IMG/VR virus record: IMGVR_UViG_3300031576_000030
Location: 1-64,000 of that record
Length of the DNA: 64,000 nucleotides
DNA from: a virus
Reading direction: 5' to 3' (one strand)
Below the pieces are notes generated by a model. The model did no database searches. It saw only the letters and a list, made by a program, of their open reading frames with translations, and was not told the origin of the DNA. The translations under genes and the position numbers were made by a program. Below are positions 23,786 to 49,000 of this stretch, in pieces. The stretch's first letter is position 1, and every line of letters starts with the position of its first letter.

Positions 23786-23786
23786 G

Positions 23787-23830
23787 AAAATCGCCTGTAC
23801 AGGGTTTGGGGAGCCTGTACAGGCGATTTT
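23787..23830. repeat. 17-bp perfect inverted repeat with two CCTGTACAGG palindromes
   Basis: AAAATCGCCTGTACAGG (23787-23803) and its exact complement CCTGTACAGGCGATTTT (23814-23830) are separated by 10 bases. Each arm contains the 10-bp palindrome CCTGTACAGG, centres 20 bp apart. On either strand a T4 run follows the stem, so it can act as a bidirectional terminator. On the minus strand AGGCGA inside the stem is the only ribosome site for the portal ATG at 23785. Confidence 0.75.
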
Positions 23831-26670: not shown

Positions 26671-26698
26671 TTGACAGAACAAAATTCGGGTGTAGAAT
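26671..26698 (+). promoter_or_regulatory. Early-arm promoter
   Basis: TTGACA (26671-26676), 16 bp, TAGAAT (26693-26698). The expected transcript would start near 26705 and reach the first early gene at 26831. With the late promoter at 26542-26570 it forms a divergent hub. Confidence 0.6.
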
Positions 26699-26830
26699 TT
26701 CATCGGGCTGGAAAAAAACAGGGAGCGGCGTCGCAAACCGCCTATCGGTCAGGGGGCGGGATTTTCGTTGTGACGCCGCGAATCAGCCCCCCTCCCCCTG
26801 ACCCATGGGCGGTTTTGATTCTGAGGCGAA

Positions 26831-28636: not shown

Positions 28637-29571
28637 CCACCTCGCCCGCCGACATCCTGTTCACCCCTGGCGAAGCGGCCTCGGCTACGCGCAGTATCCT
28701 GGAGCAGCGCCGGGCTAACCCCGCCTCGGGTGTCTATCTACCTATCGATTCGCTCTTGCCGCACCTCCTGCCCCTGGCCCAGGACAACTTGGTGACGATC
28801 CTGGGACGGCCCGGCAACGGCAAGACCTCGCTGATGATGTGGTGGGCGCGACAGGAAGCGCTGCGCATCGCCCAGAACGGAAATCACAAGCAGGCGGTGG
28901 TCTACATCACCTACGAGCAGTCGGTCGAAGACCTGACGGCCTTTGCTCTCGCCGCCCAGAGTGGCGTTCCCATCGACGCCATGGCGCGCGGCACCATCCG
29001 CGACGATCAATGGCAGGAACTGATGGGCCAGTTCGTTCAGCAGGTGGCCCTGCCCATCGTCGTCATCGGCCACAGCATCGCCCGCCGCCAACGGCGACCT
29101 CGCCTGACGCTGACGGCGGTGATCCACGCCCTGGAATACCTGGTGGACAAACTTCAATTCGAGGTGCGCCTGGTGTTCCTGGACTACCTGCAGCGTATCC
29201 CCGGCGAGAAGTACGTCGGCGACCGGCGTATGGAGGTGTCCGAATCGCTCGACCGCTGCAAGGACAGCGCCCTGTCCTTCGGCGCGCCGTGGGTGGTGGC
29301 CGTCCAGGCGCGGCGCGATGTGGACAGCCGACCACTGCCAGTGCCTCTGATGGCCGACGGCCAGGAGACTGCGGGTATCGAGCAGGCCTCGGACGTTGTG
29401 CTGTCGGTGGTGCGCCCCTCTCACTACCGCAAAGAGGGCGAATCGTTCGGAAAGGTGATCGTCTCCGGTCACAGCCAGATGCTGATCACCATCCTCAAGC
29501 AGCACTTGGGACCCGATAACCTAGCCGTCTGGATCAACTTCGATATCCCGGTCAACACGGTGCGGCAGTGA
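28633..29571 (+). CDS. DnaB-like replicative helicase
   Basis: 312 residues, RecA-fold. Walker A is LGRPGNGKTSLMM (about 57-69); VVYITYEQSVEDL and LVFLDYLQRIPG (about 191-202, Walker B) follow; VVAVQARRDVDSR is motif H3-like and AGIEQASDVVLSV the next. It unwinds DNA at the fork. The N-terminal domain of DnaB is missing (family 450 residues), as in many phage helicases. Coupled to a methyltransferase gene downstream. Confidence 0.8.
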   Translation: MTTSPADILFTPGEAASATRSILEQRRANPASGVYLPIDSLLPHLLPLAQDNLVTILGRPGNGKTSLMMWWARQEALRIAQNGNHKQAVVYITYEQSVEDLTAFALAAQSGVPIDAMARGTIRDDQWQELMGQFVQQVALPIVVIGHSIARRQRRPRLTLTAVIHALEYLVDKLQFEVRLVFLDYLQRIPGEKYVGDRRMEVSESLDRCKDSALSFGAPWVVAVQARRDVDSRPLPVPLMADGQETAGIEQASDVVLSVVRPSHYRKEGESFGKVIVSGHSQMLITILKQHLGPDNLAVWINFDIPVNTVRQ

Positions 29572-31172
29572 TCAACCTGGCAAGCGTGCTCAACCTGCCG
29601 TATGCCTCGGCCTCGGTGCACTGCTGCATCGTCTCGCCGCCCTACCTGCAGGCGCGCAAATACCACGCCCAGGGCCACCACTACTGGCCGGGGGGGGAAT
29701 ATCTCCCAGTGGCGGGGCGGGACTTCGCCATCGCCATCCCCGAATGGATCGGCGACCTGGGACGTGAGACGACTCAGGAGATGTATATCTTTCACGTGCT
29801 GGAAATGGTCAAAGAGATCATGCGCGTGCTGCGACCGGACGGGACGCTGTGGCTCAACCTGGGCGACGGCCTGGCGCGCGACGAGGCCAAAGGCGTCAAG
29901 TTTGCCGGTTATCCCGACGAGACTCAGGCGCTGGAGGAGAACCGCGGGCTGGACATCCCCCAGGGCTTACAGGGCGGAGATCTGCTGATGACGCCGCACC
30001 GCGTCGCCCAGGCTGTCCAGGCGCTGGGTTTCATCGTGCGCGACGACACGGTGTGGGCCAAACGCAACTGCAAGCCGGAGAGCAACGACGGCTGGGCCTA
30101 CCGCCAGAACACATGCGCCTGCGTCCACGAGACGCAGCGCGCCGCACTGAAAGAGGAGATGGCTCGCCTGGGCGCAGATCGACATACCGCCGGGGCCAAC
30201 GTGCGGCGGCGCATCGCCCGCGCGCCTCAGCCCGATTGCCCGGACTGCCGGGGAACGGGGAAACTTCCGCAGGTAAAGTTTCATCGGGGCAGTTGGCGCT
30301 TCACCCGCTCCCACGAATATCTGTTCCAGGTGGTACACCAGATGGGCTACTACGCCGACCGCGAGGCGGTCAAGGAACCGGCCCAGACCGTATCTATCCA
30401 GCGCGCCAAGCGAGGCGTGTCGGGAAACCACAAGTACACTCTTGGCGCGGCGGGCCAGGCGGTCGAGGGATTGTTCTCGCAGCGCGACGGCGACCCCGCG
30501 AGAATCGTGTCGCATACCCGCAACCCGCGTAGCGTCCAGTGGAGCGACGACCAGTCGGAAATCATCGACTACCTGGCCGAGGAACACCCTCAGGTGTTGG
30601 CGGATTTTATTTCCCGACAGAACGGCAACAGCGTTCTCTTGCTCAAGACGCAGGGGTTTCGCGGCAACCACTTTGCCACGTTCCCGCCCTCGCTCGTCGA
30701 GCGCCTGCTGCTGGCCTCCTGCCCGCAGAAGGTGTGCGACCAGTGCGGAATGCCCTGGGCGCGCGTGTTGGAGTACCACACGCCGGTGGCGGGCGTCGAC
30801 TTCCCCATCGCCCACCATCGAGACGACACCGGCCCGTCCACCGCCGCCGCCCTGCGCAGCCGTACCTCGGCCCTGCGCGCTTCGGGCGGCGAGAAGTACA
30901 TGGCGGCCAAGGCCGAGAATCCGCGCCGCACCGTGGGCTGGCAGAAGACTTGCCACGGCCACGAGTCGCGGGCCGTGCCCGGCATCGTTCTGGATCCGTG
31001 CGCCGGCTCCGGGACGGTCGGCTTCGTGGCGAGGCGAGCGGGACGGCGATTCATCCTGTCGGACATATCGCCGGTGTACATGGACGAGATCGCCCTGGCC
31101 CGCGCAGCGCGCAAGACCAGCCGCAGACTCCTGGCGCAATTGCCGATGTTTCAGGGAAGTGAGGAGGCGTAG
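29568..31172 (+). CDS. N4/N6 DNA methyltransferase
   Basis: 534 residues. Motif IV is CIVSPPYLQ (about 20-28), the catalytic S/DPPY; motif I is VLDPCAGSGTVGFVARRAGRR (about 475-495) near the C-terminus, so the order is permuted (beta class-like). A CPDCRGTG element and CPQKVCDQCGMPW (about 385-397) form zinc-type inserts. It methylates an exocyclic amino group on DNA, probably against host restriction. It is a paralogue of 34520-36226. Confidence 0.8.
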   Translation: MINLASVLNLPYASASVHCCIVSPPYLQARKYHAQGHHYWPGGEYLPVAGRDFAIAIPEWIGDLGRETTQEMYIFHVLEMVKEIMRVLRPDGTLWLNLGDGLARDEAKGVKFAGYPDETQALEENRGLDIPQGLQGGDLLMTPHRVAQAVQALGFIVRDDTVWAKRNCKPESNDGWAYRQNTCACVHETQRAALKEEMARLGADRHTAGANVRRRIARAPQPDCPDCRGTGKLPQVKFHRGSWRFTRSHEYLFQVVHQMGYYADREAVKEPAQTVSIQRAKRGVSGNHKYTLGAAGQAVEGLFSQRDGDPARIVSHTRNPRSVQWSDDQSEIIDYLAEEHPQVLADFISRQNGNSVLLLKTQGFRGNHFATFPPSLVERLLLASCPQKVCDQCGMPWARVLEYHTPVAGVDFPIAHHRDDTGPSTAAALRSRTSALRASGGEKYMAAKAENPRRTVGWQKTCHGHESRAVPGIVLDPCAGSGTVGFVARRAGRRFILSDISPVYMDEIALARAARKTSRRLLAQLPMFQGSEEA

Positions 31173-31361
31173 ATGAGTATCGTGTATCAACTAGAAGTAG
31201 GAATCCAGAGATGGGTGGCCGAGGTCTACGACGGCCCGATTGTCATCCCCGCCGATTCTACCGCGACGCTGGAGTTGCGCCGCCGCGACGGCTCGGTGAT
31301 CGTCCGCATGGAACTTCTCCCGATGGAGATCTACAGCATCGAAGTACGTGGGAACGCCTGA
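31173..31361 (+). CDS. Small uncharacterised protein
   Basis: 62 residues, beta-rich, starting next to the methyltransferase stop with a GAGGCG ribosome site. Its stop overlaps the following ATG (TGATG). No motif recognised. Confidence 0.6.
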   Translation: MSIVYQLEVGIQRWVAEVYDGPIVIPADSTATLELRRRDGSVIVRMELLPMEIYSIEVRGNA

Positions 31362-32866
31362 TGCACCAGGTCGTGTGCGGAGATGTGACCGACTGGGCCG
31401 CGGCCTACGACGGGCCGCCGTTCCACGCACTGCTCATCGATCCGCCGTACCACCTGGAGAGCATCGCTCGACGTTTCGGCAAGCCCTCGGCCAAGCCCGC
31501 GCGCGGCGCGCTGTATGCCCGCGTCGGGCGCGGTTTCATGGGCCAGGCCTGGGACGGCGGAGATTGGGCCTTCCGCCCCTCCACCTGGAAACTTCTGACA
31601 CGCCATCTCTACCCCGGCGGATTCGTCCTGGCCTTCGCCTCGCCGCGCAACGACTGGCTGATGGCGCATGCCATGCACCGCGCTGGATTGGTGCTTCATC
31701 CCAAGGTCTTCCTGTGGGCCTATGCCCAGGGAGTTCCCAAGGCCACCCGCCTGGACAAGCGACTGCAGGCGATGAACGAAGGTCCCCTGGCGCAGTCGGT
31801 CAGGGACAATCACTTCTACGGCCTGCAGGTGCTGAAGCCCCAGGCCGAGACCATCCTGGTGGCGCAGAAGCCATATCGGGGCCGACCGCTGTTGAATATC
31901 CTGCACACGGGCGCAGGCACGTTCAATATCGGCGCGACTCGCCTGGGCGAGCGCGGCAAGAAATGGTCGCAGGCGCGTGGCGGATTCTGGCAGACTGATG
32001 CCGAGGCCCAGGCGGAACTCGAGACCAATCCCCTCGGTCGCTGGCCGGGCAACCTTCTGCTGTGCCACCTGCCCGATTGCCTGAGCCTGGGCTGGGCATC
32101 GGTCGCGGGGCGGACTCTCAACCGATGGACGGACGGGGCCAAGCCCTTTGGCAACGGCGCGGGACATCCTTACGAGAGTCTGGATACGCCCGACGACTGG
32201 ATCGAAGTGTGGCGCTGCGCAGCGGGCTGCCCGGTGGCGGCGCTCGACGAGCAGGCGGGACCCTTGGCCTCGGGCAAGATGTCCGCAGGCACGAAACGGT
32301 CGACGGACGGCGGCTACAACGGCGCGCAACCGGAGGTCGCCAACGAGCGCGACACCTACGGCGATGCGAGCAGCGCCTCCCGTTTCTTCAAGACCTGCGA
32401 CTGGTCTTACGAGACCTTCGAGAGGTTGAACGAATCCCCCGCCGTCCACTACTCGGCCAAGGCCTCGGTCGCCGAGCGCGAACACGGACTATCGCACTTT
32501 CCAGCCCAATGGTTATCCGACGGACGCCCGACGCCTATCGACAACCAGTTCCAGCGCGGCCAGACCCACAAGCGCAACCCGCACCCATCCGTCAAGCCCA
32601 TCGGCCTGACGCGCTGGCTGGCGGCCCTGCTGCTGCCCCCACCGCTGTACGAGCGGCGTCTGCTCGTGCCGTGCTGCGGTGTGGGTAGCGAGATGATCGG
32701 CGGTCTGTTGGCCGGCTGGGATGAGATCGTCGGCATCGATCTCTCCCCGGAGTACGTCAAGGTGGCCCATGCCCGCCTGGACTGGTGGTCGGCCCAACCG
32801 CGCAGCCAATGGGACGCGCCGGCGGCCTCCGATGCCCCAACGCAACTGGAGATGTTCGGTGCGTGA
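31361..32866 (+). CDS. Adenine-specific-type DNA methyltransferase
   Basis: 501 residues from the ATG at 31361. Motif IV is ALLIDPPYHLE (about 24-34), and motif I lies near the C-terminus in LLVPCCGVGSEMIGGLLAGW followed by IVGIDLSPEY. The middle has a target-recognition stretch with KASVAEREHGL and HPSVKPIGLTRWL, typical of phage DNA methylases of the D..PPY class. Substrate specificity is unknown. It is probably protective modification; no restriction partner is nearby. Confidence 0.8.
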   Translation: MHQVVCGDVTDWAAAYDGPPFHALLIDPPYHLESIARRFGKPSAKPARGALYARVGRGFMGQAWDGGDWAFRPSTWKLLTRHLYPGGFVLAFASPRNDWLMAHAMHRAGLVLHPKVFLWAYAQGVPKATRLDKRLQAMNEGPLAQSVRDNHFYGLQVLKPQAETILVAQKPYRGRPLLNILHTGAGTFNIGATRLGERGKKWSQARGGFWQTDAEAQAELETNPLGRWPGNLLLCHLPDCLSLGWASVAGRTLNRWTDGAKPFGNGAGHPYESLDTPDDWIEVWRCAAGCPVAALDEQAGPLASGKMSAGTKRSTDGGYNGAQPEVANERDTYGDASSASRFFKTCDWSYETFERLNESPAVHYSAKASVAEREHGLSHFPAQWLSDGRPTPIDNQFQRGQTHKRNPHPSVKPIGLTRWLAALLLPPPLYERRLLVPCCGVGSEMIGGLLAGWDEIVGIDLSPEYVKVAHARLDWWSAQPRSQWDAPAASDAPTQLEMFGA

Positions 32867-33083
32867 GTGGCTGATTCTGCGGCACGATCCGCACCCGCTG
32901 AGCCTGGAAGGAAAGAAATTCATGCGCTCACAGATCGAGCGTGGCCTACAGCGTGACATCTTTCGTCCTGGCAGCCTGTTCGTCACTTTGAGAAATCCCA
33001 AGCGCTATTTCCTGTTGACCGCCACGGGGCTATTGCAAGTGGAGAAGAACTATGGAAGGCAACCTGCGACCTATACCGCGTAA
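32859..33083 (+). CDS. Small uncharacterised protein
   Basis: 74 residues from the GTG at 32859, inside the end of the methyltransferase gene (8-base overlap). The longer frame upstream is a shadow. It is basic (RSQIERGLQRDIFRPG) with a beta-like C-terminus. No family known to me. Confidence 0.55.
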   Translation: MREWLILRHDPHPLSLEGKKFMRSQIERGLQRDIFRPGSLFVTLRNPKRYFLLTATGLLQVEKNYGRQPATYTA

Positions 33084-33201
33084 GGGACTGTTCCGCCGAC
33101 CGCCCTCGGCCCTGGCGACTTTCCTGGCCTACATCGTGATCGTCGCCTTGATCTTCCTGGGCTGCAACTTCCTGTCGATAGCCTATTTGGGGGTTCCATG
33201 A
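33052..33201 (+). CDS. Small single-span membrane protein
   Basis: 49 residues, below normal calling size. GGAG precedes the ATG at 33052, the start overlaps the preceding gene, and the stop overlaps the next ATG as ATGA. Residues about 18-40 (ALATFLAYIVIVALIFLG) form one membrane helix behind a basic N-terminus. Confidence 0.6.
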   Translation: MEGNLRPIPRKGLFRRPPSALATFLAYIVIVALIFLGCNFLSIAYLGVP

Positions 33202-33449
33202 ACGGCCAGCCGCTCTTGGGCGACCAGGCCCTGCTGCGACAGATGATGCGCGATCTGCAGCGGGCTTGGGCTATTGTCTACGACGACACGGTGCTGCAAA
33301 GCCTGCCGCCGCAGGAGGTGCAGGCGTTAGGGGTATCACTCCGTCATTGTATCGTGTGCGCGACCAATCTGCTGATGCGCTGCGGCGACTACGGACCCTA
33401 CCTGATGGAGGCAAAAGATGATCACGCAAAAATGCCACGTGTGTGGTGA
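33198..33449 (+). CDS. Small uncharacterised protein
   Basis: 83 residues, helical, coupled on both sides. A C..C pair (HCIVCATNLLMRC, about 50-62) could bind a metal. Unknown function. Confidence 0.55.
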   Translation: MNGQPLLGDQALLRQMMRDLQRAWAIVYDDTVLQSLPPQEVQALGVSLRHCIVCATNLLMRCGDYGPYLMEAKDDHAKMPRVW

Positions 33450-33621
33450 GGCACGGCCCGGCGACCAGATCGGCGTGCGCATAATCGAAGTGAGCCTGGA
33501 GTACGGTCTGCCGCCGGACACGATGCAGATGAACGTGCGCTACTGCCGCGACAAGCCAGAGTGCACCGCCATGTCCAAGGACTATCGCTTCGGCTTGCGG
33601 CCTCGGCAACCCATCTTTTGA
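33418..33621 (+). CDS. Small zinc-binding protein
   Basis: 67 residues, overlapping the previous gene by 32 bases. KCHVCGE (about 5-11) and YCRDKPEC (about 42-49) form a four-Cys ribbon. Unknown partner. Confidence 0.6.
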   Translation: MITQKCHVCGEARPGDQIGVRIIEVSLEYGLPPDTMQMNVRYCRDKPECTAMSKDYRFGLRPRQPIF

Positions 33622-33659
33622 TGGGTATTCATTGACCATTAATCCTGTGCGGGGAAAGA

Positions 33660-33675
33660 AAGTATATAATCATCT
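33660..33675 (+). promoter_or_regulatory. Strong -10 element before a structured RNA
   Basis: TATAAT at 33665-33670 with no good -35 at 15-18 bp. A TTGACC at 33632-33637 is 27 bp away, too far. A start near 33677 would place the RNA element at 33677-33814 at the very 5' end of the transcript. Activator-dependent use is possible. Confidence 0.45.
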
Positions 33676-33676
33676 G

Positions 33677-33860
33677 GGTGGGTAGCGGCGTGGCGAGTTG
33701 ACACGCTAGGCGGTTGCAACCGCCTGTAGTTAGCGGAAGTCGTGCGACTAAAGCCTCCCCTGCCAAGCGTGGACGACGCACGTAAGGCAGAACAAGGGTA
33801 TGCCCAAAGGGAGGACAGCCAGGACGGAATATGTAGAAACGGACACTGGCCTATCCATCA
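33677..33860 (+). ncRNA. Structured RNA element, copy A
   Basis: Stems: TAGC/GCTA (33683-33686 with 33705-33708), the 16-bp palindrome GGCGGTTGCAACCGCC (33709-33724), AGTC/GACT (33738-33749), and a three-way junction with outer CCTCCC/GGGAGG (33754-33759 with 33809-33814) enclosing CTGCC/GGCAG (33760-33790) and GGG/CCC (33796-33805). GCTA may alternatively pair with TAGC at 33731-33734, giving a switch. The first 40 bases align with copy B at 48676-48712. Confidence 0.55.
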
Positions 33861-33909
33861 GAATTTCGATGTACAGCATCGGCGGAGAATTCGCTCTGAT
33901 TGGAGAACA

Positions 33910-34149
33910 ATGAACATCAACATTAAGGACTCGCCTTGGCTCACCGAGGCCAATTGGTCAGACGAGCAGGCACGCTATATGCTCATCGCCCTGCTGCATG
34001 AAGGCGTCCTGTCCGCAAGACGTGGCGAGGACGGTGCCTTATTTTTCTCTTACGCTTGGGCATACTATCCAGATGGCGTGTCCCAGTCCGAGGCCATCGC
34101 CGAGTTGGGCGCGATGGAGTTCGATGAGGCGGGGCAAAGAATCGAATGA
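33910..34149 (+). CDS. Uncharacterised small protein
   Basis: 79 residues from the ATG at 33910, with a GGAGAA ribosome site and ATGA coupling to the HNH gene. The longer upstream frame is not supported. Acidic, aromatic in the middle (FFSYAWAYYPDG). No family recognised. Confidence 0.6.
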   Translation: MNINIKDSPWLTEANWSDEQARYMLIALLHEGVLSARRGEDGALFFSYAWAYYPDGVSQSEAIAELGAMEFDEAGQRIE

Positions 34150-34526
34150 GTCCGCGTAAGTCTATCGGCGACTACCCATCCGACTGGAAGGACATCGCGC
34201 GAACCGTCAAGCAGGCGGCGGGCTGGCAATGTGTGCGCTGCGGTGCTCCCCATGACAGGGAGACGGGCCATGTCCTGACTTGCCATCATCTCGATCTCAA
34301 TCCCGAAAATAATTCGTGGTACAACCTGGCGGCCCTATGTCAGCGTTGTCACCTACACATTCAGGGCAAAGTGATCATGGAGCGCATCTGGATGTTCGAA
34401 CACAGCCCGTGGTTCCGACCCTACGTAGCCGGATTCTATGCTGACCAATTTGGTCTGCCGACCGACCGCGAATACGTCATGGCCCACCTGGACGAGTTGA
34501 TCGCCTTGGGGCAGGGAAGATGCTAG
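34146..34526 (+). CDS. HNH endonuclease
   Basis: 126 residues. WQCVRCGAPHD (about 26-36) and CHHLDLNPENN..NLAALCQRCH (about 47-70) give the zinc-binding Cys residues and the HH..N..C..CH core of McrA-like HNH nucleases. It lies in the early operon, on the same strand and coupled to its neighbours, so it looks like a functional early nuclease rather than a homing insertion. It sits directly upstream of the DNA methyltransferase 34520-36226, so a nuclease-methylase pairing is possible. Confidence 0.8.
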   Translation: MSPRKSIGDYPSDWKDIARTVKQAAGWQCVRCGAPHDRETGHVLTCHHLDLNPENNSWYNLAALCQRCHLHIQGKVIMERIWMFEHSPWFRPYVAGFYADQFGLPTDREYVMAHLDELIALGQGRC

Positions 34527-36226
34527 CCCAGGCCAACGCAATCCGCATTCCGCTGGCGGCGGAATCTGTCCACTGCGTCACGACCTCGCCGCCGTTCTGG
34601 GGCTTGCGCGCCTATCAGGGCCAGCAATCGTTTGCTTGGCCGGGCGGCTCATTCGCCCCCTGGCCGGGCCTGCCCAAATGCGTCGAGATACCGGGGCCGG
34701 ACGAGAATGAATTGACGCAATGCCAACACAACTTTCAGATTATGGGTAAGAGTACAACCCGTATACGCCACGGCGCAATAGGCGGCCTACATGCAGGGCG
34801 ATCAGTCAATAAACTCTCTCGCAACATTCTGCTCAACCCTAATACCGGCGCATGTTGTCTGAAATGCGGCGCTTGGCGCGGCGGCCTGGGGCAGGAGCCG
34901 CAACCCGAAATGTTTATTTTCCATATCCTGCTGGTCATGCGCGAAGTCCGCCGCGTGCTACGGCCCGATAGCGTGTGCTACTTCGACATTGGGGATTGCT
35001 ATGCCAGCAATGGCAAGGGAAGTAACGTGGGACAAAGAAGTAGCACATTACGAGGCAGAGGAATCAATCAAGGTTCAATGCCACTCAAGATGGACAAGTT
35101 TAGTCTAATACTACCCAAGGGCAATCTCGTCGGCATCCCGGCGATGCTGCTCAAGGCGTTACAGGCCGACGGCTGGATTGTTCGCAACGACCTTGTGTGG
35201 CACAAAGTCGCGCCGATGCCGGAGAGCCTGAACGGGACTCGTTATGAGGCTGCGCCGTGCGGGTGTCTTCAATATGAGGGTAAGCGTAATGAGACATTGA
35301 CAGTAGGTAAGCAAAGGCTGAACAACGGTGACCTTACTTCTGGCAAAACCGTTAGCGACCATGCCGACCCCGACTGCCCCGATTGCGGCGGGACGGGGCG
35401 GGTGGGCGAGCCGGAGTTGCGGCGCGGCAGTTGGAGGCACACGCGCGCGCACGAATTTGTGTTCATGCTCACGAAGCAGATGGGCTACTGGAGCGACAAA
35501 GAGGCGGTGAAGGAGAAAGTCAAGGAGTCTAGTCTAATACGATCTCAAAGCGGCTGGCATGGGCAAAAGGATAATGGCAGATCTGAGCCGGATAATACAG
35601 ATAAAATGGGAACTCGATGGGCGTCCCCATCGGGTCGCAACCCGCGCAGCGTCCTCTCCGCCGAGAATGATTTTGTTCTGGGGGCATGGCTGGCCGAGAA
35701 TGCGCCTGTGCTACTGGCTGAATACCTCGAACAGGCGCGCAATTCTCCTTCGGTAATGTCACCTGCGCCGTCGGCTTATTCGGGCAACCATTACGCCACT
35801 TACCCTCCCGGCCTCATCCAGCCCTTCATCCTGGCCTCCTGCCCGGCGCGCTGCTGCCCGGTGTGCGGCGCGGGCTGGGCCCCGGTGGTGGAGATTCCAG
35901 AGGGCAGGCCGAGAGGCTCCTATCACGATCATAGTCAAGATGGGATTGAATACGGACGAAGGCAAGGCGGCAAAGGGCCAGCCAATCTATCGGGAGATCA
36001 GCAATTGTATGTCACCGGCTACCGTCCAACGTGCGCCCACCCGCATACGGAGCAAGAGGCGCTTCCGGGAATTGTTTTGGATCCATTCTGCGGGAGCGGA
36101 ACCACCGGTTTAGTCGCCCGCGAACTGGGTCGCCGCTTCGTCGGGCTGGACGTATCTCTGCCCTACCTACGCGACCAGGCGATGGGCCGAGCCGAAGTCT
36201 ACACGTTGCCGCTGATGGCGGTGTGA
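34520..36226 (+). CDS. N4/N6 DNA methyltransferase, paralogue of 29568-31172
   Basis: 568 residues. Motif IV CVTTSPPFWGL (about 20-30) and motif I VLDPFCGSGTTGLVARELGRRFVGLD near the C-terminus. Shared blocks with 29568-31172 include the MQMGYWSDKEAVKE-type stretch, RNPRSV, and the GNHYATYPPGL..LASCPARCCPVCG zinc region. Its AT content is higher than that of the first copy. It ends in EVYTLPLMAV, exactly as the next gene does. Probably modifies phage DNA. Confidence 0.8.
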   Translation: MLAQANAIRIPLAAESVHCVTTSPPFWGLRAYQGQQSFAWPGGSFAPWPGLPKCVEIPGPDENELTQCQHNFQIMGKSTTRIRHGAIGGLHAGRSVNKLSRNILLNPNTGACCLKCGAWRGGLGQEPQPEMFIFHILLVMREVRRVLRPDSVCYFDIGDCYASNGKGSNVGQRSSTLRGRGINQGSMPLKMDKFSLILPKGNLVGIPAMLLKALQADGWIVRNDLVWHKVAPMPESLNGTRYEAAPCGCLQYEGKRNETLTVGKQRLNNGDLTSGKTVSDHADPDCPDCGGTGRVGEPELRRGSWRHTRAHEFVFMLTKQMGYWSDKEAVKEKVKESSLIRSQSGWHGQKDNGRSEPDNTDKMGTRWASPSGRNPRSVLSAENDFVLGAWLAENAPVLLAEYLEQARNSPSVMSPAPSAYSGNHYATYPPGLIQPFILASCPARCCPVCGAGWAPVVEIPEGRPRGSYHDHSQDGIEYGRRQGGKGPANLSGDQQLYVTGYRPTCAHPHTEQEALPGIVLDPFCGSGTTGLVARELGRRFVGLDVSLPYLRDQAMGRAEVYTLPLMAV

Positions 36227-36228
36227 GA

Positions 36229-36915
36229 ATGGAAAACATTCTTGGCCCATACGTATTGGGCACGACGGACGATGAACATCAGGGGATATACACGGGCGAC
36301 GCATTGGAGTTAGCAGAGGCCATTCCTGATGAGAGCGTGGATTTTATTTTCACTGACCCAGTGTACTGGCATATAGATGATTACCTTTGGTTAGCGGAGG
36401 TTGCTAGCAGAGTTCTCAAGCCCACAGGTACGGTGTTGGCACAGGTGGGGGCACTATTTTGGATCGAGGCACAAAACGCCTTTCGGGAAGTAGGGGAAAT
36501 GGTACATCTGCCGCCCATAATAGAGGTATACCATTTTTCGACCACGGCATTTCAGGTCGGGTCGGTCAGAATCTTATCTGGTTATCAGCCGTACATTTGG
36601 GCTATCAAAACAATGCGGACTCTTTCGATCATGAACAGGAGTTTCGGCAAACGCGACAAAGTTCATCATGAGTGGGGGGATGGGGCAAACTTCTTTTCCC
36701 GATACATTCAGGTATTGACCGAATCAGACCAAGTGATATTCGACCCTTTTACGGGTGGCGGGACAGTCCCCGCTGTGTGTAAGATGTTGGGTCGGAAGTG
36801 GCTGGCATTCGAGATAAATCCAGCGGTAGCGGAACGGGCGCAGGAGCGTGTGCGTAACACCCCGTCGCCACTTTTTACGGCGGAAGTCTACACGCTGCCG
36901 CTGATGGCCGTGTGA
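36229..36915 (+). CDS. Small beta-class DNA methyltransferase
   Basis: 228 residues from the ATG at 36229, three bases after the previous stop. FIFTDPVYWHIDD (about 39-51) is motif IV with DPVY instead of DPPY, and VIFDPFTGGGTVPAVCKMLGRKW (about 168-190) is motif I. Pattern and size match the M.MboII-like beta class. The C-terminal ten residues are identical to the previous gene. The altered motif IV may lower or shift its activity. Confidence 0.7.
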   Translation: MENILGPYVLGTTDDEHQGIYTGDALELAEAIPDESVDFIFTDPVYWHIDDYLWLAEVASRVLKPTGTVLAQVGALFWIEAQNAFREVGEMVHLPPIIEVYHFSTTAFQVGSVRILSGYQPYIWAIKTMRTLSIMNRSFGKRDKVHHEWGDGANFFSRYIQVLTESDQVIFDPFTGGGTVPAVCKMLGRKWLAFEINPAVAERAQERVRNTPSPLFTAEVYTLPLMAV

Positions 36916-38078
36916 TGAGATTCGGCAGCCTGTTTTCGGGGATCGGCGGGTTCGATAGAGGCTTTGAACGCATCGGCATGTCGTGTGCCTGGCAGGTGGA
37001 GAATGACCGCTCATGCCAAAAGGTGTTGGCGCACCATTGGCCCAACGTGAAGCGATACGGGGACATCCGGGAGGTAGTAGACCTTGAACCAGTTGACCTT
37101 ATTTGCGGGGGGTTCCCCTGTCAAGACCTGTCAGTGGCCGGAGGCCGCGCGGGCCTGGCTGGAGAACGCAGCGGACTTTGGCACGAGTTCCATCGCATTC
37201 TTACAGAGTGTCGCCCGCGATGGGCTGTCGTCGAGAATGTCCCCGGCCTGCTTTCCAGCAACGGAGGGCGAGATTTTGCCGTCATCCTTCGCGGGCTGGT
37301 CGAATGCGGGTATGGCGTCGCCTATCGGATACTCGACGCTCAGTATTTCGGAGTGGCCCAGCGCCGCCGCCGTGTGTTCATTGTCGGAAGTCTTGGAGAC
37401 GGACGCGTTGCCCAAGCACTTTTTGAGTCCGAAGGCTTGCCGGGGCATACTCCGCCGCGCCGCCAAGAGGGGACGGCCAATACCGGACTTTCTGGAACGC
37501 TGTCTGCGAATGGTGGCGGGATAGACCGACCCGCCGGAAATGCCAACGAGTTAGACTTCTGCGTTGCCGCCCCGCTCCGAGCAGGGCGGGCCAGAGCGGA
37601 TACATTTGGGGACGCTGGCAACGTAGTGGCCTTCCAGCAGAACACGCGCGATGAAGTCAGGCTCATCGGCGGCAATGGAAGCCACGTTGGGGCGTTGTCG
37701 GCAGAGCCGGGAATGAAGCAGCAAAACTACATCGCTGGTGCGATCACTACGCATCAAAGGCGTGGTAATCCTGATAACCAGACGTTTGTGGTTGCTCCGT
37801 CCTTGGTCAGCCATCACAACAACCTAGATAAACAGGCGTATATAGCCTTCGACCCGTTGCGGGCCGGGATCGAGAGGACATTCATTCACCGCACAGGTTC
37901 GTTCGGCGTCCGCCGCCTCACCCCGGTGGAATGCGAGAGACTCCAGGGATTTCCCGATGGATTCACTGACTTGCCGCAATCCGACAGCATGCGCTACCGC
38001 CAATTGGGGAATGCGGTATGCGTTCCGGTAGTGGAGTGGATTGGGCGGCGACTGTGGGTCGCCGAATACAACGAGTGA
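36912..38078 (+). CDS. dcm-like: C5-cytosine DNA methyltransferase (Dcm type)
   Basis: 388 residues. Motifs are in order: RFGSLFSGIGGFDRGFE (I), GGFPCQDLSVAGGR (IV, catalytic Cys), VVENVPGLL (VI), QRRRRVFIVG (VIII) and the C-terminal RQLGNAVCVPV (X). The target-recognition region lies between about 170 and 310. It transfers a methyl group to cytosine C5, acting with the others against host restriction. It overlaps the preceding stop through ATGA. Confidence 0.9.
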   Translation: MMRFGSLFSGIGGFDRGFERIGMSCAWQVENDRSCQKVLAHHWPNVKRYGDIREVVDLEPVDLICGGFPCQDLSVAGGRAGLAGERSGLWHEFHRILTECRPRWAVVENVPGLLSSNGGRDFAVILRGLVECGYGVAYRILDAQYFGVAQRRRRVFIVGSLGDGRVAQALFESEGLPGHTPPRRQEGTANTGLSGTLSANGGGIDRPAGNANELDFCVAAPLRAGRARADTFGDAGNVVAFQQNTRDEVRLIGGNGSHVGALSAEPGMKQQNYIAGAITTHQRRGNPDNQTFVVAPSLVSHHNNLDKQAYIAFDPLRAGIERTFIHRTGSFGVRRLTPVECERLQGFPDGFTDLPQSDSMRYRQLGNAVCVPVVEWIGRRLWVAEYNE

Positions 38079-38745: not shown

Positions 38746-39030
38746 CCCCCCCCCCTTTTCCTTATGTCAATACAATAATTCGGTCAACCTACTCCAATAA
38801 TTCGGTCAAGTTGCCTAACAATCGCCTAACAACACTGTTCGCCTGAATTGCAGTCAGATTGCCCAACGATGTGAGTTCCCCCAATGTCGTTGGAATAATG
38901 CCTGAAATGCGCGGGGACACCTACCGACGCTTGGCCGATGGCCGCACTTTCCCAGTGCGGCCAATGTGGGGGGGTCCGCCGCCTGCAGTGACCGGCGGAC
39001 CCCGTAGGTGAGCGGTGGTGATCGGCCTTG
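38746..39030. other. Iteron-like repeats and three-way-junction structure, possible origin
   Basis: Non-coding. CAATAATTCGGTCAA occurs at 38773-38787 and 38795-38809 (22 bp apart), then GCCTAACAA at 38813-38821 and 38824-38832 (11 bp apart), in an AT-rich stretch. CCAACGA/TCGTTGG (38863-38893) follows. Then CACCTAC/GTAGGTG (38918-38924 with 39004-39010) encloses stems of 10 bp (38939-38963) and 11 bp (38971-39003), a perfect three-way junction. It sits between convergent genes, and no T runs make classic terminators. An origin is the best reading. Confidence 0.45.
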
Positions 39031-39858: not shown

Positions 39859-40368
39859 TGTCCTAACCCTCCTGGCCGTGAGAGGCCGATAAAGCGGCAT
39901 CCGCCGCGCGTGCAAGAACGGCCATAGTCTAACCGAGTTCGGCTCAGCCTCCGCTAAACTTTCGCTAAACATTTCAACGAAATTCCTAAACATTCTGCTC
40001 ATTTTTCTAAGCAAACGTTAAGGAATTTCCGAGCCGAATTTAGCGATAATTTAGGCGAACGCAGGCCGATTCGTGGTAGATTCGCGCGTGCTGGACGACA
40101 AGCCGCGCTGCGCGAATTAGCCGTAGTACGAATCACTGGTGGTAGTCGTCCAGCGTACTATCCTATAGCGGTAACGGGCAACGGGGGGCTATTGGGCGGT
40201 GGTAGGCAGATGAGGTCTATCAACATTATGTCTACCAGAGTAGGGTAACAGAATGAGTGAGGAAGGCAGGGAGGTAAGATATAGGGGCGGGGGAATTGAG
40301 GCATTGCATTGCTCCGGATCATACTCCTCAAATGACATGTTGACACTTCCTATTGACAGGGAACGCGC
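39859..40368. promoter_or_regulatory. Divergent control region with arrayed CTAAA motifs
   Basis: 510 bases with no gene. CGCTAAAC stands at 39952-39959 and 39963-39970 (11 bp apart), CCTAAAC at 39985-39991, and the inverse TTTAGCG and TTTAGG at 40039-40045 and 40050-40055 (again 11 bp). TTCGGCTC (39938) and GAGCCGAA (40031) form a longer symmetry. Then inverted repeats ATTCGCGC/GCGCGAAT (40080, 40110) and GCTGGACGAC/GTCGTCCAGC (40090, 40145). Two TTGACA hexamers (40340, 40353) precede the next gene. Looks like operators or replication elements. Confidence 0.5.
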
Positions 40369-48434: not shown

Positions 48435-48654
48435 AATCCACCGGAGCGCGGTGGGCAGCACTTTAGTCATGCATGTGCAGATCGGGCCACACATGGGCAA
48501 TCTTATCGGGCGTCTCGGCATAAATTTTCTCGACTTTTCCGAGTACCATCCCGATGCCATCTATCCTTGGCCCATCAGCGGCTCGATGATCACCACACTC
48601 GTCAATCAGTTAAACGAAGTAAGGGGGATAGACCGCTCGCCAGGCGCGGGATAG
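48403..48654 (+). CDS. Small uncharacterised protein
   Basis: 83 residues from the ATG at 48403, overlapping the helicase C-half by 32 bases. Beta-rich (GSTLVMHVQIG). The final part reads into a structured RNA region. No family. Confidence 0.5.
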   Translation: MTISIKFGNCKIHRSAVGSTLVMHVQIGPHMGNLIGRLGINFLDFSEYHPDAIYPWPISGSMITTLVNQLNEVRGIDRSPGAG

Positions 48655-48669
48655 AAAAGTCCGGGGGGC

Positions 48670-48790
48670 CGAAAACTGGCGGGGCGCGTTACACAGCCAG
48701 GCGTTGCAACCCACCGACCGCAGCGAGGCACGCCGGGAACCATCACAGGCAATGGCCGACGCGCAGGGGGATCTCATAGAAAAGGAGAGA
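48670..48790 (+). ncRNA. Structured RNA element, copy B
   Basis: CTGGC/GCCAG (48676-48680 with 48696-48700) encloses GGCGCGTTACACA, then GCGTTGCAACCC (48701-48712). Copy A has TAGC/GCTA in the same position around GGCGAGTTGACAC, then GGCGGTTGCAACC. The stem is kept while its bases change. AGCGAGGC (48722-48729) follows. It ends 4 bases before the next ATG, with GGAG in between. Confidence 0.5.
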
Positions 48791-48793
48791 CGC

Positions 48794-49000
48794 ATGAATG
48801 ATACAGAACTGGTCACGAAGTTGGAAGCCCTGTGGCAATCACTCAAGAAGGATGCTGCCAGGAGCCGCGATAAGAGCCACTGGTACCGGGCGAGGGGAGA
48901 CGAACCCTATGCGGAGTTTCACTTTGGGCAGTGTATCGCCTACGAATTTACTGCCCAGGAACTATACCACATCCTCCACCCCTGGAAGCCTGGGGAATGA
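48794..49000 (+). CDS. Small uncharacterised helical protein
   Basis: 68 residues from the ATG at 48794, AAGGAG site. Charged, Tyr/Trp-rich helix pattern. Stop overlaps the next ATG through ATGA. Confidence 0.6.
   Translation: MNDTELVTKLEALWQSLKKDAARSRDKSHWYRARGDEPYAEFHFGQCIAYEFTAQELYHILHPWKPGE

Follow-up and report, generated by a model that had tools for sequence, protein, structure and literature searches.

The question raised by the gap at positions 33622-33909 of this phage DNA is whether it encodes a functional RNA and, if so, what that RNA would do. The DNA belongs to IMGVR_UViG_3300031576_000030, a 74,968-base virus record, and its bases 1-64000 constitute the window, by which we mean the whole 64-kb stretch that was analysed. 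In the window the genes are mostly minus-strand up to ~26.5 kb and plus-strand between 26.6 and 55.6 kb, after which the minus strand is used again to the end. An earlier note had proposed that the gap holds one copy (A) of a functional RNA and that a second copy (B) lies near 48.7 kb, with covarying stems between the two as the evidence.

It is noted that the stems proposed for the two copies do lie where they had been placed, with TAGC (33683-33686) facing GCTA (33705-33708) in A and CTGGC (48676-48680) facing GCCAG (48696-48700) in B. The alignment of A with B over about 36 bases is also recovered, being the best match in the window with a Smith-Waterman score of 36, where the next place in the window scores 26. 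In 60 Markov genomes of 64 kb the maximum score is 28.7 +/- 2.0 and 0/60 reach 36, while under a null taken over all gaps 7 of 200 sets reach 36 (p ~0.035), and the similarity is therefore marginally significant. Judged from the sequences, it is weak evidence for RNA.

The proposed covariation, by contrast, is not found. In the sequence alignment TAGC of A occupies columns 4-7 and CTGGC of B occupies columns 6-10, with the 3' strands coinciding, and therefore the two stems are three columns out of register. When pairs are counted between A and B, none has changed on both sides, whether in the A stem, in the B stem or in the P3 hairpin of A. An alignment forced by eye to fit the structure, which takes a 3-nt gap, yields a single change from A-U to G-C, for which significance is impossible from two sequences. 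Moreover, the ensemble of A favours hairpin P2 over the TAGC/GCTA stem. In B, 2 of the 6 pairs of P3 are mismatched and one is lost, so that the strongest hairpin of A is damaged there, and the fold of the gap containing B is no better than that of shuffles (z +0.78, or +0.89 when a wider stretch is taken). A third copy of the shared element is found nowhere in the 64-kb window. Of the functional RNA in two copies, what stands is thus the part concerning A, which is predicted to be structured, with a strand-specific fold; in B we see no second copy of A's RNA but a short similarity in sequence that stands apart from it. The claim of a covarying RNA family with two copies falls with this negative result.

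Two other explanations of the A/B match are to be considered here. The first is that the match arose by chance between two GC-rich gaps and that the fold of A is ordinary mRNA structure having no function. The 7 of 200 null gap sets that equal the A/B score are consistent with it, as are the lack of a relative of A in any collection searched and the fact that B matches Pseudomonas phage capsid genes (43 nt at 86% identity) about as well as it matches A, the capsid match being itself taken as chance. The fold of A, however, is beyond that of shuffles and is strand-specific, as described below, and we regard this explanation as unlikely. The second is that the common part of A and B is a DNA element, a site for a phage DNA-binding protein, with the RNA fold of A being a separate matter. 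A has here a 16-bp palindrome GGCGGTTGCAACCGCC (33709-33724, a perfect DNA palindrome that is also hairpin P3), with GTTGCAAC in B (palindrome at 48702-48711), and the A/B identity runs unbroken through TTGCAACC (33714-33721 in A, 48704-48711 in B) despite the damage to the hairpin in B, which is unfolded; the marginal significance of the similarity can be read in the same direction. There are only two such sites in the window, however, the similarity lies mostly outside the palindrome, and the 5 occurrences of TTGCAACC counted over both strands of the window are equalled or exceeded in 9 of 100 shuffles. We give this explanation a little less credence than chance, and note that it concerns only the common part of A and B and is compatible with the reading of A as a leader that is set out below.

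Now we consider the fold of A. The RNA 33672-33909 on the plus strand has z -3.23, with 0/200 shuffles folding as well, whereas the minus strand has z -0.84, so that the significance of the folding is confined to the plus strand. The predicted structure is given in Table 1. In it, the bases of P2 belong to the stretch that is similar between A and B, and P5 and P6 have probabilities of ~1.0 in transcripts that begin at 33677 and end at 33909 or 33950, while the probability of P1 falls to 0.01 when the 3' end is at 34000. The perfect three-way junction that had been claimed (P5) is indeed the minimum-free-energy structure of its segment and is the strongest part of A, ranking 5th by local fold among 1846 gap windows in a scan to which its exact frame was added by hand; those ahead of it are the hairpins at 23786 (both strands), 39971 and 39280. 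The two 180-nt windows of A come 3rd and 4th among the 71 that are non-coding, and 8th and 13th among all 831, and therefore A is well above background but not unique in this phage, where other gaps, e.g. at 39961 and 23761, are also strongly folded. Based on these predictions, the RNA of A very probably takes up a compact, multi-branched structure.

Table 1. Positions in the window of copy A, its predicted helices and neighbouring features, and of copy B
Feature	Position	Strand	Basis
Hairpin ACCCATC-TTTT-GATGGGT	33607..33628	+	read from sequence; overlaps stop codon of ORF 33418-33621
TATAAT, probable -10 box	33665..33670	+	exact hexamer, 1 of 3 in 64 kb, both strands
A, multi-branched RNA closed by P1, with P2, P3, P4, P5 and P6	33677..33859	+	predicted fold
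P1, closing stem	33677-33685 / 33851-33859	+	P 0.65-0.77, 3' end 33909 or 33950
P2, hairpin GGCGUG/CACGCU	33687..33707 (pairs 33687-33692/33702-33707)	+	P 0.69-0.74 (~0.75 for the pairs given), 3' end 33909 or 33950
P3, hairpin AGGCGGU-UGCA-ACCGCCU	33708..33725	+	P 0.78-0.99
P4, hairpin	33727-33750	+	predicted fold
P5, three-way junction	33754..33814	+	z -4.41, 0/200, ensemble frequency 0.78, MFE
P6	33818-33850	+	predicted fold
Shine-Dalgarno GGAG of ORF 33910-34149	33902..33905	+	sequence; start choice backed by codon scores
ORF79 (79 aa), first gene past the leader	33910..34149	+	codon score +0.17 per codon
Stand-alone HNH endonuclease ORF, 126 aa	34146..34526	+	PHROG phage HNH matches
N6/N4 methyltransferase, next after HNH ORF	34520-36226	+	PHROG and Pfam matches
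B, 36-base similarity to A	48672..48714	+	in 139-bp gap 48655-48793; no significant fold

Codon usage marks the sequence from the end of ORF 33418-33621 to the start of ORF 33910-34149 as non-coding. The early-gene codon table gives -0.09 per codon for 33742-33909, the in-frame extension back to a GTG, versus the positive score of ORF79, by which a coding start at GTG 33742 is ruled out; the extended ORF 33742-34146 has no tblastn match in phages, and ORF79 has no relative among 42 related phage records. At the upstream side, the hairpin 33607-33628 is, as read from its sequence, a possible weak terminator that would set the upstream operon apart; the terminator prediction made no call there. 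A transcript start at ~33677 is predicted from the probable -10 box at 33665, for which no good -35 is present at 16-18 nt and no sigma-70 pair was called. Taken together, the strand-specific fold, the non-coding sequence and the -10 box support A as a credible candidate structured RNA.

What would such an RNA do? Based on the model that we propose, transcription would start near 33677 and A would be transcribed together with ORF79, so forming the structured 5' leader of an mRNA for ORF79, the HNH protein and the downstream methyltransferases; to this reading we give about an even chance. The alternative in which A is a stand-alone phage non-coding RNA of ~185 nt made from its own promoter, acting in trans or as a scaffold or decoy, would agree with the discrete fold, with the closing stem starting at the predicted 5' end and with the -10 box; it is, however, improbable in our estimation, since no terminator is called after 33859, that is, between A and ORF79, and a Shine-Dalgarno sequence and an ORF follow within 50 nt downstream. 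Two side observations concern the methyltransferase genes. The interval 29568-38078 is a DNA methyltransferase gene cluster with several genes of the N6/N4 type and one of the C5 type, and in it the ORFs 34520-36226 and 36031-36915 have in their 3' ends a common 36-bp stretch of 92% identity, as if duplicated.

In the leader reading, A may turn the ribosome-binding site on and off. The Shine-Dalgarno GGAG lies directly 3' of a hairpin, and the strand UCCAUCAGA (33854-33862) is predicted to pair either with the 5' end, forming P1, or with UCUGAUUGGA (33895-33904), the helix UCCAUCAGA/UCUGAUUGGA covering the GGA of the Shine-Dalgarno sequence. Thus the 3' strand of P1 (~33854-33859), the stem closing the multi-helix domain of A, would double as the strand that pairs over the Shine-Dalgarno GGAG. 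The ribosome-binding site would be more open when P1 is closed and buried when P1 is open, so that P1 closure would raise the translation of the operon. The closure could be triggered by a ligand, a protein, temperature or the order of folding, with both the switching and the trigger being our conjecture. In constrained folds of 33677-33912 the two states have energies of -90.4 versus -88.3 kcal/mol, ~2 kcal/mol apart, while with the 3' end at 34000 the buried state is favoured by ~4.5 kcal/mol. The pairing probability of the Shine-Dalgarno sequence moves with that of P1, and which state is preferred varies with the coding sequence that is included. The statistic for the shared strand is reached by 24 of 400 shuffles of the interior (p = 0.06), and therefore a switch is suggested only.

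It is instructive to compare this predicted arrangement with known systems. The leader of lambda cIII has two structures, of -19.6 and -18.1 kcal/mol, which control the translation start (PMC6307299), and PMC11182007 cites Altuvia 1989 for this bistable leader. A would be similar in being the 5' region of a phage mRNA for which two folds of nearly equal energy are predicted, with different access to the start. By contrast, the cIII element is short (58 nt) whereas A is large and multi-branched and includes a three-way junction; the likeness is in the predicted arrangement, with no relation in sequence being claimed, and A is known from predicted folds. Phages are also reported to carry riboswitches, the glutamine riboswitch of phage Melnitz being one (PMC9004378). 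Like translational riboswitches, A has an aptamer-like junction and a P1 whose 3' strand is the one predicted to bury the Shine-Dalgarno sequence; unlike them, it matches no Rfam class, has no conserved core and has no homologues found. It is in our view a long shot that A is the first representative of a new regulatory RNA class, be it a multi-junction translational riboswitch or something else, placed before a nuclease/methyltransferase operon in an uncharacterised phage lineage. Only a few riboswitch- or thermometer-like leaders have been reported in phages, and A, should it prove a genuine switch, would join them as a case of structured translational control before nuclease and DNA methyltransferase genes; it would then also offer an entry point into a phage lineage without a close relative in the collections searched.

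The earlier note knew of no family with this pattern. In Rfam, none of 4227 models matches at the gathering score over the window and, at E<=10, the intervals 33600-33950 and 48560-48860 give chance scores only. For known riboswitch classes, no Rfam model reaches the cut-off or a plausible score. The note had also raised HEARO (omega RNA) and solitary CRISPR-repeat RNAs as leads, from the HNH gene nearby and the TTGCAACC palindrome. A is like the HEARO/IscB omega RNA (RF02033) in being a structured RNA with an HNH gene downstream. However, the RF02033 model gives no match to A even at E<=10, no TnpB-type domain is found in the 75-kb record by a search whose control was positive in 6 genomes, and the neighbouring HNH protein is small and stand-alone, matching phage HNH families alone. 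The search for the IscB RRXRR domain was empty, but its control was equally silent. For the CRISPR lead, no direct-repeat family or array is found at A; the model CRISPR-DR64 scores 14.6 against a cut-off of 40, a chance match that lies outside A, at the hairpin 33607-33628 and on the opposite strand. Either identity for A, HEARO/omega RNA or solitary CRISPR-repeat RNA, is thus very improbable, and both leads are set aside.

The expectation of further copies or relatives in related phages was not borne out either. By blastn against 50,697 phages, plasmids and 42 related phage records, A has chance-sized matches only, and two matches to the same part of A (L067 and L070) are on inspection unlike it. 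In IMG/VR, a loose pattern of the A/B core occurs at 17 places, all without the fold of A, a tighter one at 0 places, and patterns made from the loops of the junction and of P6 at 0 places for both. In GTDB genomes the tighter core occurs at 5 places, no more than expected by chance, and the one place that was checked for ORFs, in an Anaerolineae genome, lies inside a 1237-aa ORF. A covariance model built from the single sequence of A recovers A alone when run over 1.58 Mb of related phage DNA, and gives no hit among the 42 related records. A model of this kind has little power to pick up diverged relatives, and close ones seem to be missing from the collections, so this absence is poor evidence of uniqueness. 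A is known from one sequence, with no homologue.

The phage itself is unclassified and, by sequence comparisons, an isolated lineage having no close relative in the collections searched. No IMG/VR relative was found via the methyltransferase protein of 31211-32863 or via the DnaB-like protein. The HerA-like ATPase led to one IMG/VR relative at 46% identity and, when used as a three-row alignment, to the 42 records above, at 36-68% identity, which have only a handful of genes in common with this phage.

Finally, we note other structured or repeat elements in the window. On the plus strand at 26671-26825, a promoter-like TTGACA-16-TAGAAT (11/12) is followed by a long interrupted stem, AAACCGCC/GGCGGTTT plus GGTCAGGGGG/CCCCCTGACC, with an overlapping alternative GCGGCGTC stem; the segment 26720-26825 has z -4.0 with 0/200 shuffles, and the scan window at 26731 has z -5.6. 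As judged from these predicted folds, this element at the head of the early arm is a stronger candidate for a structured leader than A. At 23787-23830, just upstream of a minus-strand gene, lies a perfect 17-bp inverted repeat AAAATCGCCTGTACAGG with a 10-nt loop, the strongest local fold among all gaps on both strands. A replication origin is possible in the AT-rich interval 39930-40160, where CTAAAC/CGCTAAA motifs recur together with inverted repeats (z -4.5 at 39961) and are followed by GCTGGACGAC...GTCGTCCAGC and ATTCGCGC, inverted repeats that overlap one another. At 38760-38860, the repeats CAATAATTCGGTCAA and GCCTAACAA, which are possible iterons, adjoin a poly-C tract.
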